Source: Candidatus Halobeggiatoa sp. HSG11 (GTDB lineage: Bacteria > Pseudomonadota > Gammaproteobacteria > Beggiatoales > Beggiatoaceae). From it: a stretch of 45,127 bases of DNA. The stretch spans positions 1 to 45,127 of the forward strand of contig JAUCGL010000019.1 of the NCBI GenBank assembly GCA_030378105.1. The letters are read 5' to 3'. The notes below the pieces were generated by a model that was not told the DNA's origin, did not search any database, and saw only the letters and a list, made by a program, of their open reading frames with translations. A program made the translations under genes and the position numbers. Of the stretch, positions 2,012-22,654 are shown in pieces. How positions within the stretch are numbered: the stretch's first letter is position 1; every line of letters begins with the position of its first letter.

Positions 2012-4069
2012 TTACTCGGTAATATCAAGATATCTCTGCAAAGTTTCTTTTACAATCCAAGTACCACTACCTCCATCACGAGTTGGACTACTAGCAGTTG
2101 ACACCCAATTATTATCTAAAAGTACTAAATAGTAGGTATACATCTCCCCACGAATGTCTAAATAACCACCACCAGGTTCATATAAATTAACTAAATGGAA
2201 AGGTTGCTCTTTGTGCAAACCTTGTTTTCTTAAGGCTAAACTATCTGTTGTACATTGAACTTTCCAGATACCTGTACCACCTTTAGCACGATTAAACTCA
2301 GTTGTGCCAGAAACACAATATCTATTGCCATAACACCCAGTTCCTCTAACATCTAAATAAGATTCAGTAATTAGATCGTCGTACCATCCATCATCAGCCC
2401 TATTAACCAAATAAACTAAGTCACCACAATGTACAGCACCACTTATTTCTGGTGAAACTGCTCTTAGATGCCAATAGGTACTTGCTTTAGTATTCTGAAC
2501 ACCACCGAAAACTCCATTAGTACCAGTAGCGGCACAATGCGTATTACCATATGTACAGGCTTTTGTAAATATATCATATCGACCCGCATCGAACGGTGTG
2601 CGCATGCGTAGATAACCTAGGTTTTTATTAAGATATGTACTATGTTGATTTTTAATAAAATAAGTTATATTATAAGCAACAGAATGAGACTTAACTGTAC
2701 GATCCAGTTGTATAGCTCGTCCCATAACTTCAACTTCTGCTAAACTCATTGGTTCACCAGAATAATTATGTTGAATGCGTACATAACGACCAATTGCTCC
2801 AACGTCAATAGTAACGTTTTCACCAACAACTGGAACATGATTAGCGTACCAATCAGCTTGTTCCGTAGCTGCAGTTCTTGAATTATCCGGCAAACGATAT
2901 TTTGACACATACACTCGGAAGTTTTTTAGTCGTTCACTACAACAATCAGTACGATTATATAAGTTGATCGTATCAATTTCATGTAAATCACCTAAATCAA
3001 CTTCCCACCAAGGATAATACCCAGTTTCTAAATTAGTGTGAGTTACGGAATCTTCTGACCAATTACCGCTTGTATTTCCATCCACCGCACGATCAGCATT
3101 ACCACCTTGAGCAGTAGAAGACTGTCTTGCCGATTTATTCATGGCAACATTGCTACCTTTGAGTTTGGCACCAAATACTTCTACTTCAGATAGATACATC
3201 TTACCATTTCGGCCTTGTACTCTAACGTACTGACCTTTCACACCAGCAACAAAGAAACTCTTTTTGTCACCATTAGAAATACCGCTATACCAAGTTGCAT
3301 GAGAACGTAAGGCGTTAATATGTCGTTCTTCTTCTGGGAATGGTTTGTCTGATAGCAATACATAAGCACTACCTGCAATATTAGGATTATGTATAATAAT
3401 AGAAATTACTTCATAATTATCGCCTAAATCAACTTGCCACCAAGGATTATTTGCATGAGTACCAATTCCTCCAGTTAGGATACCATCTACTGCAGTAGCT
3501 GGTCCCCCACCACGTACATTATGTTGGGTTGCTGGTTTATTTAACGCTAAATTTTCCAACGTATTAGGGTTCATTTCAACGTCAACGTTCATGCCACAGT
3601 TACCAGTTAATACAGCACCAATTCTATAACCAGTACAAAGTGCAATATTACCAAACGCACTGTCTAAAGTTCCATTAAATACTTCAACTGGAAATGTTTT
3701 AGTAGTTAAGGTATTAGTAGATATTGAAATTAAACTATTTAGAGTTTCATCCCACATTTGCCATTGCCCAGATGTATCCTGATTAAGCCAATATTCATCA
3801 CCTTTACCATCAGTATAACGAGCAAGAATAACAATTAAGGCTCTTTTACCAACATCTTTAGCATCAGCAGTAATACCAGCTTTGACAACAAGTGGCTGAG
3901 TTATATCAATATTACCATCATTTTTGGCTAATTTACTGCCAGGTAATAAAATTTGCCAACCAACACAGGTTGTGGTATCAACTTCACTCATAGTAGCTAC
4001 ACTATTTGCTGTAGCCAAATTACCATCAGAACATGATGTGCCACCATCAGCAGTACGTGGATCAGTGCC
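2012..4069 (-). pseudogene. Secreted discoidin-domain (F5/8 type C) lectin-like protein, 5'-truncated by ISAs1
   Basis: About 685 residues of coding sequence survive; the N-terminus and its signal peptide are lost at the IS edge (4070). In order there is an unrecognised N-terminal region (about residues 1-170 of the remnant), then two F5/8C (discoidin/fucolectin-like) jelly-roll domains. The domains start NLALNKPATQ and NVAMNKSARQSS, each with the WWQVDLGD or WWEVDLGD strand and a closing RVQ/RIQ...EVEV segment. A C-terminal region follows with paired YLDVRG/YLDIRG and GTGIWKV/GSGTWIV motifs, suggesting two beta-trefoil-like repeats. Cysteines are numerous, as in an exported protein. Discoidin domains usually bind carbohydrates or lipids; a surface or secreted adhesin role is inference. 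An ATG inside the IS (4142-4144) is in frame and would make a 710-aa hybrid, so expression is not excluded. Confidence 0.8.
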
Positions 4070-5271
4070 CACGGCTTTCTCATAAAAAATTAAGCCGCCT
4101 GAGCATTGCTTCAAATTTATCAGAACAGTCAGCAAAAGTTTCAATAGCAGCCTGAAAATTTTTGACTTTTGTTTTGCGTAACAAACTAATTGCCAGACTG
4201 CGCAACACTCCCATTATTTGAGCTTGATTCCCCGACTTTGTTCTGACCGTATCTTCCTTGAACGTCACATCACGAATCCAATTCTCGGATTCGACCCCCC
4301 AATGCTCTCGGACTGCCCATGCCAATTCTTTGGTTTTGTCCTGAGGCTGCTTGTCTGCCGTTTGATTTGTTATATAGAAGGATGTTTCGTAGCTTGTTTT
4401 TTTTGTACTTGTCTCAAATGTCTCTCGCTCAATAACCACCAATGATTTCAACCAACTGTTTTCCCAACGTTTATCTATAGAAATAGTTTTCATAGAAAAT
4501 AGTTTTGCCCGGCGTATGGTGACACGGCCATGTACTTTTTCAGTATCAATATCGGTAACCTATTTGTTTGCTTATTTCTGCCAATTCCCGACATTGTTTT
4601 AACAAAATAGGTTGATTTTCTTTGACTTGGATTAAATAATGTCCACCAGCCCGATGGATTTGAGCCGTAGTTTTCGGGTTGCAATGATGTGCATCCAGTG
4701 TTACTTTCCCTCTCTCCAATCCTGATTTTTTCAGCAGTTGTCGGACTACTGGGATTTCACTGGATTTTGACCCAATCAGCTCCGCTTGTGCGAGCAATAC
4801 ACGGTTTTTATGACTCACAGCCAATACAATTGCCTGCTTATTCCCAGATTTAACCGTTCCTTTCAACACCTTTCCGTCAACAGCAACCCATTCTTGATTG
4901 AGTGTACGTTCCATGCACACACCTACAATACTTTTCAACAAGAATATTTAATTCTTCCCAATCGAGCTGCATTTACAAGACGGGGCAGGTGAGCACGAGA
5001 AATTGGCATCGCATCATGAATTCCTGTTATGTCTCTCAACCATTTAATTTTATTGGATATATATCGAAAAATGCTGGATACTGTTGAACGTCCTACCAGC
5101 TTCATCACGTGGGTCTGTCAATTCACCCAGTACATTTATGAAATTGATGATTTTTTCGTCTGAATAAGGTATTGTTTTGTTCACAGGTATTCTTCTTCTC
5201 AAAATTTATGGTTATTGAAATCTGCTTTATATTATACCAAAACTTCAAGAATTTTTTATGAGAAAGCCGTG
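4070..5271 (-). mobile_element. ISAs1-family insertion sequence, complete ends, decayed transposase
   Basis: This 1202-bp element is bounded by perfect 22-bp inverted repeats: the left starts CACGGCTTTCTCATAAAA at 4070 and the right ends TTTTATGAGAAAGCCGTG at 5271. Length and transposase type fit ISAs1. The flanks (TCAGTGCC before, AGCATTTG after) show no target-site duplication, so the ends may have recombined or decayed. It interrupts the discoidin gene at 4069. No remainder of that gene is visible beyond 5271. Confidence 0.88.
4080..5184 (-). pseudogene. ISAs1-family transposase, frameshifted
   Basis: Conceptual translation from a GTG at 5184 gives VNKTIPYSDEKIINFINVLG, then DITGIHDAMPISRAHLPRL in a second frame. 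The catalytic core follows in a third (4546-4941): EWVAVDGKVLKGT with the first Asp and VTLDAHHCNPKTTAQ with the second. The C-terminal part (from about 4550) is shifted again: HGRVTIRRAKLF, then REHWGVESENWIRDVTFKED with the catalytic Glu, ending LRRLNFL. At least three frame breaks (near 5060, 4950 and 4555) make it inactive. Intact family members are near 370 aa, which matches the span. Its C-terminal end is nearly identical to that of the copy at 1-116. Confidence 0.85.
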
Positions 5272-5311: not shown

Positions 5312-5508
5312 CACTGCCATTAAGTTAAGGAATTTATATTTATTATCAATACCATACATATCAAATCATCTGTTAAGCAAAAATTGCACCTTAAAAAATA
5401 CTTCAATATTTTCAATTAATTATTGAGCTACGTCATTTTGCTATGCTAAATAGTCAACATTATAACATATTGATTAATAATCGTTATTTTCTTAACTTAA
5501 TGGCAGTG
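5312..5508. mobile_element. MITE of family A with 11-bp target duplication
   Basis: This 197-bp AT-rich element has perfect 18-bp inverted ends (CACTGCCATTAAGTTAAG at 5312, CTTAACTTAATGGCAGTG at 5508). It is flanked by an exact 11-bp direct repeat, ACACTGCACCC, at 5301-5311 and 5509-5519. It has no coding capacity. An 11-bp duplication is compatible with mobilisation by an IS4-type transposase, which is inference. Other family A copies are at 127-165, 14385-14498 and 22552-22654. Confidence 0.88.
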
Positions 5509-5556
5509 ACACTGCACCCCCGTCAAAGCTCTCAAAGAATCAAAGCATCAAAGGTT

Positions 5557-6294
5557 CTACTGTCCGCCTCGAACGGGCCACACATAGAAGGGGATGGCCT
5601 TATCGTCGTAGCCGACAATGCCATCGACGAGGACCACGTACCACGCCGCGACTGCGAGATCCGCGTAGGTAGTAGACGACCAGTAGATGTGCGACTGCAC
5701 ACCCGTGAATTGATGACCATTTGGTAAAGCAGGATTTGATCGCGAAATATCTAGAAGACTATACAATTCTTTTACGTTGGGTAAACGCCAATCCGTTTGA
5801 TGACTTCCATTATTACTTATATCTCCACAATCTTTACTATTTATTTGGCCACTGTTGTTAAGTCCTGTCACATCAGTTCCAGCAGTTGCCCAATTTCGTG
5901 TAGCTTCCGCACAATTGGCGTTCTTTAACCATATCAAACATGTGCGATGGTCCGTGACTGTTCCATCATCGTTGTCAGTAAAAACCGGATTTGCACTTGT
6001 GTCTGGGATACAAGATGGGATACCATTCATCACAGTATCTGCCTTATTATACACCTCCGTTAAAGTTTTTCCGGTATCTCCCGGTCCATTTGTTGGCTCA
6101 GTAAAACCAGCAGTGGGAGCTGAAGCTGAGATTCCATCAAGACGATCCCAAATATCCTCAATCGTGTACATGGCACTGCCAGTATTGTCTGGAGCCGCCG
6201 GTGAATTTAGGCTGCCAGCCAATAACGGCAACGGTGAACCCAATAAAATCGGCACTAAAGCCATTTGAGCATAACGTTTCATTTTTTTCATCAT
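5557..6294 (-). CDS. Secreted DUF1566 (Lcl C-terminal) domain protein, probable DGR target
   Basis: This 245-aa protein starts with a Lys-rich segment and a hydrophobic stretch (about residues 9-27) typical of a signal peptide. From residue 100 it has the DUF1566 pattern: DNDDGTVTDHRTCLIWLKNANC, DWRLPNVKELYSLLD, IYWSSTTYADLAVAAWYVV and the terminal FYVWPVRGGQ. DUF1566 has a C-type-lectin-like fold and is a known DGR target family. The start is supported by GAGGAA six bases upstream. The last 47 codons before the stop are strikingly unlike the rest: 36 end in G or C and 22 are NNC, while upstream codons are AT-rich. The ligand is unknown; surface display or secretion is inferred. Four CTTTGA repeats follow the stop, then a family A MITE about 48 bp downstream. 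Confidence 0.87.
   Translation of the reverse strand: MMKKMKRYAQMALVPILLGSPLPLLAGSLNSPAAPDNTGSAMYTIEDIWDRLDGISASAPTAGFTEPTNGPGDTGKTLTEVYNKADTVMNGIPSCIPDTSANPVFTDNDDGTVTDHRTCLIWLKNANCAEATRNWATAGTDVTGLNNSGQINSKDCGDISNNGSHQTDWRLPNVKELYSLLDISRSNPALPNGHQFTGVQSHIYWSSTTYADLAVAAWYVVLVDGIVGYDDKAIPFYVWPVRGGQ
5560..5700 (-). other. Candidate DGR variable region (VR)
   Basis: The 3' end of the DUF1566 gene encodes GVQSHIYWSS through VWPVRGGQ. Framework residues (YWSS, AW, VWPVRGG) alternate with positions occupied by NNC codons (CAC, ATC, TAC, CTC, GTC, GGC, GAC, GCC, CCC, TTC). This is what adenine-directed mutagenesis of AAC codons in a template repeat would leave. The segment GTGTGGCCC to GGCGGACAG at the end is GC-rich and would be the initiation-of-mutagenic-homing end. 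No template repeat, reverse transcriptase or Avd-like gene is in the window, so the DGR would have to act from elsewhere. Confidence 0.6.
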
Positions 6295-11967: not shown

Positions 11968-12735
11968 ATGAACTTTTTAAAATATGATTTAGGTAGTCTT
12001 AAAAAAGGTGAGATAGTCGAAGTTACTCTGACAAAAGGGGCTAATGTTAGGCTCATGAATAGCTCAAATTTTAATAGCTATAAAAGTGGTCGTAAACACC
12101 ATTATTATGGAGGTCTTGCGAAGAAATCTCCGATAAAAATCCAAGTACCTAATTCGGGTCATTGGTATGTTGCGATTGACATGTAAGGTTTACAAGGTAG
12201 CACAAATGCTTCTGTTCGTGTTTTACCAAGAACTTTGCCAGAAATTCAAGAACGTCCTCTTTCTGAAATACCTAGTCTTGTACGAGAAAATGTACCTCCA
12301 CTAACTGAAAATAATGAAGAAACACATGATGTTTTTATTTCTCATGCCTCAGAAGATAAAGATGATCTTGTTAGGCCATTAGCAAAAGCACTTTCTGATG
12401 AAGGATTAAATGTCTGGTATGATGAATTAACTCTTCGAATTGGTGATAGTTTAAGACAAAAAATAGATAAAGGTCTTGCTAATAGCCGAGTTGGTTTAGT
12501 TGTCCTTTCGCCTTCATTTATAAAAAAAGGATGGACTAATTATGAATTAGATGGAATCGTAACTAAGGTTATTTCTGGAGAACAAGTACTATTACCTATT
12601 TGGCACAATATTACAAAGCAACAAGTTGTTGATTTTAGTCCTTCATTAGCAGATAAAGTAGCCCGAAGCACAGCAAGTCATACTATTGAGGAAATTGCTA
12701 TAGAAATTGCTGATCTTATAAAATCAAGGATTTAA
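11968..12735 (+). pseudogene. DUF1883-TIR effector gene with a single in-frame stop
   Basis: The first 72 codons encode a DUF1883 domain (NFLKYDLGSLKKGEIVEVTL, HHYYGGLAKKSP, GHWYVAIDM), with AAAGGAG upstream. TAA at 12184-12186 interrupts it. The same frame continues GLQGSTNASVRVLPRTLPEIQ into a complete TIR domain: HDVFISHASEDKDDLV, VWYDELTLRIGDSL, VVLSPSFIKKGWTNYELDGI with the conserved Glu of TIR NADases. The frame stays open to 12735. Family members encode both domains in one protein, so one substitution event appears to have split the gene. A TTG at 12235 could re-initiate a 166-aa TIR protein, but no good ribosome binding site precedes it. TIR proteins of this kind are thought to act in NAD-depleting defence. 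Either a recent pseudogene or a split gene. Confidence 0.82.
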
Positions 12736-14384: not shown

Positions 14385-14498
14385 TACTGCCATTAAGTTA
14401 AGGAGATTGATTGGGGTAACCACAAGAAATAACCCCTATAAATCATCATTTAACGTAGGGGCAATCCTTTATGGTTGCCCTTAACGCAAATGGCAGTG
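14385..14498. repeat. Repeat family A copy
   Basis: It runs from TACTGCCATTAAGTTAAGG at the left to CCTTAACGCAAATGGCAGTG at the right, so the inverted ends of the family are kept with a few mismatches. The first 39 bp are the reverse complement of 127-165. No clean target duplication is visible. It lies between mazF and the convergent ATPase gene. Confidence 0.75.
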
Positions 14499-22551: not shown

Positions 22552-22654
22552 TCACTGCCATTAGGGTGAATACATAGGTTCGACCCTACAATATTGAAAT
22601 ATATTGTGTTTTGTAGGGGCAGACGCATGTCTGCCCTTAACGCAAATGGCAGTG
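22552..22654. repeat. Repeat family A copy
   Basis: The inverted ends CACTGCCATT and CGCAAATGGCAGTG are kept. The interior has TGTAGGGGCAGACGCATGTC followed by TGCCCTTAACGCAAATGGCA, related to the right end of the 14385-14498 copy. No clear target duplication flanks it. Confidence 0.7.

Follow-up and report, generated by a model that had tools for sequence, protein, structure and literature searches.

The 3' end of a gene encoding a 245-aa DUF1566 (Lcl_C) protein, located on the minus strand at 5557..6294 of the 45,127-nt stretch of Candidatus Halobeggiatoa sp. HSG11 DNA analyzed here (the window), is very probably the variable region (VR) of a DGR target that is orphaned in the genome as assembled, being either stranded or remotely served. 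DUF1566 is already known as a bacterial DGR target, according to the accessible text of two reports (PMC4159848, PMC6642488), and the gene is a new, orphan member of that group. Orphaning is the most likely condition of the VR because the reverse transcriptase (RT), the template repeat (TR) and Avd are absent or fragmentary in the assembly, and within the orphan reading a former target left stranded is preferred as moderately probable. In DGRs, the RT makes errors at A when it copies the TR RNA, and the resulting cDNA replaces the VR (described in the consulted sections of PMC3240598 and PMC12875486).

The PF07603 (Lcl_C/DUF1566) domain was complete in the ORF 6294..5557 (profile search, E 8.7e-27), and the 3' end of the gene is formed by the VR. 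The N-terminus resembled a signal peptide when judged by eye, and the protein is apparently secreted. The predicted structure had a mean pLDDT of 61.6; a Foldseek search with this model gave no match at E<=0.001, a PDB sequence search gave none at E<=1, and the best neighbour by VIA-align was the Lcl C-terminal domain (Z 6.0), followed by intimin, invasin and C-type lectins. Support for the predicted C-type-lectin-like fold is modest. No match was obtained in an Rfam search of the window. The gene is adjoined by a large ORF (2012-4144) containing two stretches of F5/8 type C domain and by two ORFs that read like pieces of a transposase, possibly an ISAs1-like one (4080-4941).

Codon usage changed abruptly towards the 3' end of the gene. 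Among the last 47 codons (5700..5560), 36 ended in G or C and 22 were NNC, against 63 and 25 of the 198 upstream codons (Fisher p = 3.5e-8 and 9e-7, respectively); the counts for the last 47 codons were exact in a preliminary description of this DNA, and the switch it pointed to was unmatched in the stretches compared, with at least 36 G/C-ending codons in 0 of 8,533 sliding 47-codon stretches from 21 further ORFs that the analyst picked among the 43 listed for the window (maximum 24; maximum NNC 13). The VR core comprised 39 codons, from YWSS to VWPVR (5569..5685, minus strand), and was colinear with the TR of a DGR in another genome of the same family (G020, contig C27). Its IMH-like 3' end, coding for YVWPVRGGQ (5560..5586, minus strand), was conserved among the VRs of the family and may, by analogy with the DGR literature, act as an IMH.

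The G020 DGR consisted of two VR targets (a 1067-aa frame, Lcl_C 2.7e-33, and a 182-aa frame), an Avd-like gene (bAvd E 1.2e-6; 29.4 bits, under the cut-off of 40), a TR, and an RT with the motifs GLPIGNLTSQ and YVDD. Differences between TR and VR fell on template A in 20 of 24 cases for the first target, three of the other four being the first three compared bases, and in 23 of 24 for the second; as the pair was found by BLAST without an A-over-non-A filter, this bias was not filter-selected. The window VR aligned to the G020 TR without a gap, which upholds the earlier assignment of the segment as a DGR-type VR of a DUF1566 protein.

Searches with the window tail resulted in matches at E<=0.01 in nine of 57 genomes (own and relatives, own included), and those with a guessed TR in matches at E<=0.001, several of them weak, in 23 of 42 family genomes. 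In the loci retrieved by the latter search, whose weakest matches were scanned by pattern only, a DUF1566 TR was recognised in G020 only. From the fetched family loci came 45 distinct VR-like C-termini, including those of the window gene and of a second copy in the own genome. Based on 26 of these (the 19 that were not 39 codons long were dropped), entropy at codon positions 1, 2 and 3 was 1.66, 1.60 and 0.69 bits at the Asn positions, and 0.55, 0.39 and 0.80 bits at the other positions; variation thus lies in the first two bases of the codon at the Asn positions and mostly in the third elsewhere. An alternative in which the segment is an ordinary GC-rich C-terminal domain, gained horizontally, that evolved under diversifying selection and was never targeted by a DGR would agree with a GC-rich segment in an AT-rich window (33% G+C) and with relatives found under record names of many phyla, yet it is very improbable: the variable codons conserve the third position over the first and second, the reverse of ordinary divergence, the match to a TR is gap-free, and the phased tail described below is common to VRs having a TR.

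The own genome (5.2 Mb, 326 contigs, completeness 99.99%, not closed) contained five PF07603 matches in four ORFs and only two DUF1566 VRs of this kind, which were also the only matches to the framework pattern with up to three mismatches. The second gene, at contig C273 (1211-1765, minus strand), had 212 bp in common with the window 3' end at 81% identity; this homology reached 57 nt beyond the stop codon, and the rest of the genes was diverged upstream. The C273 gene was broken upstream by frameshifts, which could be either real or assembly errors. With the Asn positions taken from the G020 TR as a proxy, no TR having been found in the own genome, the two VRs differed in amino acid at 13 of 15 TR-Asn positions vs. 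4 of 27 others (Fisher p = 7.4e-6), the differences at the latter being W/L, Y/C, K/M and F/S. The 28 nucleotide differences (42 codons) were distributed as 9, 15 and 4 over codon positions 1, 2 and 3, and 17 had A in one copy. This concentration on the Asn codons of the G020 TR likewise backs the DGR-type VR. The four differences outside the Asn positions and the four at third codon positions count against it, and restriction of the variation to template A is presumed for this gene. Had gene conversion or transposon-borne copying alone carried the segment from one DUF1566 gene to another, the 212 bp common to both loci and the MITE-like elements flanking them in each would be accounted for, but the concentration of differences in 15 Asn-type codons would be left unexplained, and the elements are unequal in size (197 bp in the window VR tail and 114 bp in C273); we give this explanation hardly any credence.

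Across the 326-contig assembly, no DGR-type RT was found. The RVT_1 profile gave three matches, two UG4-like RTs and one Cas6-RT, and none on the contig of the window, consistent with the earlier statement that no RT is encoded locally; DGR RT queries against the own genome returned a UG4-like RT at 1.5e-13, or nothing. The RTs of contigs C244 and C304 were rejected as DGR RTs, as they matched PADLOC RT_UG4 instead (E 9.7e-84 and 3e-86, respectively) and lacked IGNLTSQ, with LGASISPQ in the former and, by eye, LGSPLSPL in the latter; the third, on C240, was rejected as a Cas6-RT. The C-terminal part of both UG4-like RTs (C244, L016:3942-5462, and C304, L017:1626-3299) read by eye as exported or membrane-anchored. 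In the C240 gene (L018:5027-6418), Cas6 was joined to the start of the RT, and its neighbours read like type III CRISPR genes, again by eye. The window also encodes a TIR-domain protein (12235-12735) close to the PADLOC PDC-S66 (E 3e-71) and Thoeris ThsB (E 1.1e-42) models.

For the TR, searches of the own genome by BLAST of the VR, by an all-AAC guess and by the framework pattern matched only the two VRs, apart from three weak matches of the VR query (E 0.14 or worse). The search that the preliminary description had proposed, for a near-copy of the VR with A differences beside a DGR RT, found neither TR nor DGR RT in the assembly. The own-genome FGE-sulfatase-type genes (L191, L192, L193, L195 and L015) mostly had VR-like NNC codons, some with pyrimidine-phased tails, and no TR was seen among the ten own-genome matches of the FGE-type query. 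An intact Avd was not found in the own genome either: the bAvd profile reached 23.7 bits, under the cut-off of 40, and partial matches occurred at C60, C81, C295 and C278 only. The pieces at C60 and C295 lay within 320 nt of contig ends, and a collapsed repeat is therefore possible. In sum, neither a DGR RT nor a TR nor an intact Avd, and so no complete DGR, was found in the own genome as assembled.

These results run against the earlier proposal that a DGR elsewhere in the genome diversifies the VR now, the searches for RT and TR being negative across the assembly. That proposal had been made dependent on a TR or RT in a complete genome: neither was found, but the assembly of 326 contigs is not closed, for which reason there may be an unassembled core. 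A complete Avd-TR-RT cassette present in the cell or population, either repeat-collapsed or on an unbinned replicon, could then still diversify the VR in trans, a possible scenario though less likely than not. It is in line with the fragmented assembly and the Avd pieces near contig ends, with the same-genus genome G002, where a 3.2-kb contig carries bAvd, a DGR RT and an FGE-type TR, and with trans-served targets beside degraded loci in Thiohalocapsa PB-PSB1, as reported in the accessible part of PMC10907252; on the other hand, completeness is 99.99%, the RT, TR and Avd searches were negative or fragmentary, the hairpin behind the VR is weak or replaced by MITE-like sequence, and the G002 TR serves another domain, with no match to the guessed DUF1566 TR in that genome. 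A stranded former target is favoured because the core is missing, Avd persists in pieces, the C273 paralogue is broken and MITE-like elements adjoin both VRs. The signs of decay are the weaker part of this preferred reading, as assembly errors could account for the C273 frameshifts and a collapsed repeat for the Avd pieces at C60 and C295. As to other family members, their DGR RTs were rejected as partners, the three aligned cassettes (L070, L072 and L074) having FGE-sulfatase-type TR/VR pairs, and a further same-genus genome (G003) carried an RT remnant with stops.

Beyond the family, scans of genome_contigs (best 80 of 214 confirmed relatives kept) and viral_contigs resulted in 79 and 50 loci, respectively, with a VR-like pattern in 114 and an RT motif in 19 of the 129. 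Candidate TR-like copies were present in 11 loci, under a filter that demanded A mismatches at least twice the non-A mismatches, so that their A bias is partly selected. Six loci were clean, with A + non-A mismatches of 18+1 (L214), 19+0 and 20+0 (L218), 14+0 (L228), 16+0 (L260), 19+1 (L265) and 19+1 (L290), and no RT motif was seen in L260 and L290 within the stretch examined; the weaker ones (L295, L300, L302, L314 and L315) had 3 to 9 non-A mismatches. The window VR showed 18 to 32 non-A mismatches to seven TRs, and therefore none of these is its own template.

Directly after the stop codon of the DUF1566 gene, a phased array of four CTTTGA units (5523..5553, minus strand; units at 5548-5553, 5540-5545, 5532-5537 and 5523-5528) was found, with spacings of 8, 8 and 9 nt. 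It is followed by a GACGGGGGTGCAG block (5503..5524, minus strand) with a weak 5-bp hairpin (GCAGT-GTC-ACTGC), at the place of which several relatives (L021, L027, L210, L228 and L241) have a GC-rich hairpin of 7-12 bp. A MITE-like element with inverted ends CACTGCCATTAAGTTAAG (5312..5508, no strand assigned) abuts the VR tail and overlaps the hairpin place. Each of the two own DUF1566 VRs has a tail that passes into a MITE-like element with CACTGCCATT ends (window 5312-5508; C273 1047-1160), which is why the hairpin has 5 bp in the window and is replaced in C273; as candidate recognition elements 3' of the window VR, the TTTG array is present, together with a hairpin of 5 bp only that overlaps the MITE-like end. 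Altogether, (CA)CTGCCATT inverted ends were observed on four MITE-like elements of 102 to 197 bp, the two further ones at about 14385-14498 and 22553-22654 of the window.

At least one TTTG pair at 8-9 nt within the first 80 nt was detected behind 52 of 144 distinct VR-like ends (45 from the family and 99 from genome_contigs), compared with 3.1 on average, and at most 7, over 100 rounds of dinucleotide shuffling, a contrast that overstates independence because the copies are related. The same phasing occurred in 0/144 at a control stretch (150-230), in 0/144 in the 60 nt before the VR, behind 0/6 tested TRs and behind 0/42 viral DUF1566 VR-like ends. It followed 44 of 94 terminal and 8 of 50 internal VRs, so that most VR-like ends in the set are without an array. 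Among the 60 ends having at least two TTTG in the first 75 nt, 21 had a strong hairpin within the first 120 nt, vs. 3 in control stretches; C273 is one of the 21, its hairpin sitting in the MITE-like element. As T runs come after some of the VR-tail hairpins, a terminator role is possible. In FGE-type matches (n=23, one of them left out of the comparison), the (C/A)TTT pairs of the 13 VR-like tails lay for the most part at lags of 7 and 8 nt (15 and 14 pairs), some tails being without an array, and the nine TR-like tails had none at these lags.

The recurrence of such repeats on the VR side of these targets lends weight to the earlier suggestion that the CTTTGA repeats may belong to the homing context. 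We tentatively propose, at somewhat short of an even chance, that they represent, at this locus, a general cis-element that accompanies chromosomal DGR targets: a (C/A)TTT array phased at 7-9 nt, directly after the VR and absent behind TRs, sometimes kept for a VR inside an ORF, and placed before the known hairpin. Against this, the array is not universal, since viral ends had none and several FGE-type tails lacked it (e.g. L003, L038 and L072). If the proposal is true, the array would mark the recipient site for mutagenic homing and could serve to locate orphan VRs even when no TR is available. It may be the new part of the system; no earlier description of phased repeats behind VRs was found in the open-access literature accessible to us, which is weak evidence of absence.

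Under the DGR-target reading, an Avd-associated RT would have made errors at A in copying the template RNA, and this cDNA would have taken the place of the VR, which was presumably recognised by its conserved 3' end and by downstream elements. Such a gene would yield an exported C-type-lectin-like protein whose binding face is randomised, both its export and a binding partner being presumed. The locus suggests that DUF1566 proteins are diversified by DGRs in a family of large sulfur bacteria, and it illustrates the appearance of a DGR target whose machinery is gone or has been displaced. Should the phased array be functional, it would add a new component to target recognition and could guide searches for orphan targets. 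Targets of this sort escape TR-based searches; PMC8144416 states of its own approach that remote targets would go undetected.

In comparison with known systems, the gene resembles the DUF1566 DGR targets of PMC4159848 and PMC6642488, as far as their accessible text goes, in its domain and in the VR at the gene 3' end, and differs from them in that no TR, DGR RT or intact Avd was found in the own genome. The Thiohalocapsa PB-PSB1 loci, in the part of PMC10907252 consulted (the term DUF1566 is absent from its main text), are alike in having targets without local machinery and MITE-like repeats that degrade loci, but in that organism complete loci are present as well, and metagenomes revealed diversification. 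DGR homing is promoted by a hairpin 3' of the VR, though this is not strictly required, according to the same sections of PMC3240598 and PMC12875486 as above; the BPP-1 target site, with IMH and downstream hairpin (PMC3240598, accessible text), is similar in that the VR end is conserved and a further element lies outside the TR/VR homology, whereas in the present case a phased TTTG array precedes the hairpin, which is weak in the window. The G020 DGR, unlike the gene in the window, has a complete cassette and another framework and 3' end (HVRLVRDG), yet both have colinear variable positions, the same domain, and VR-VR homology running past the TR homology.
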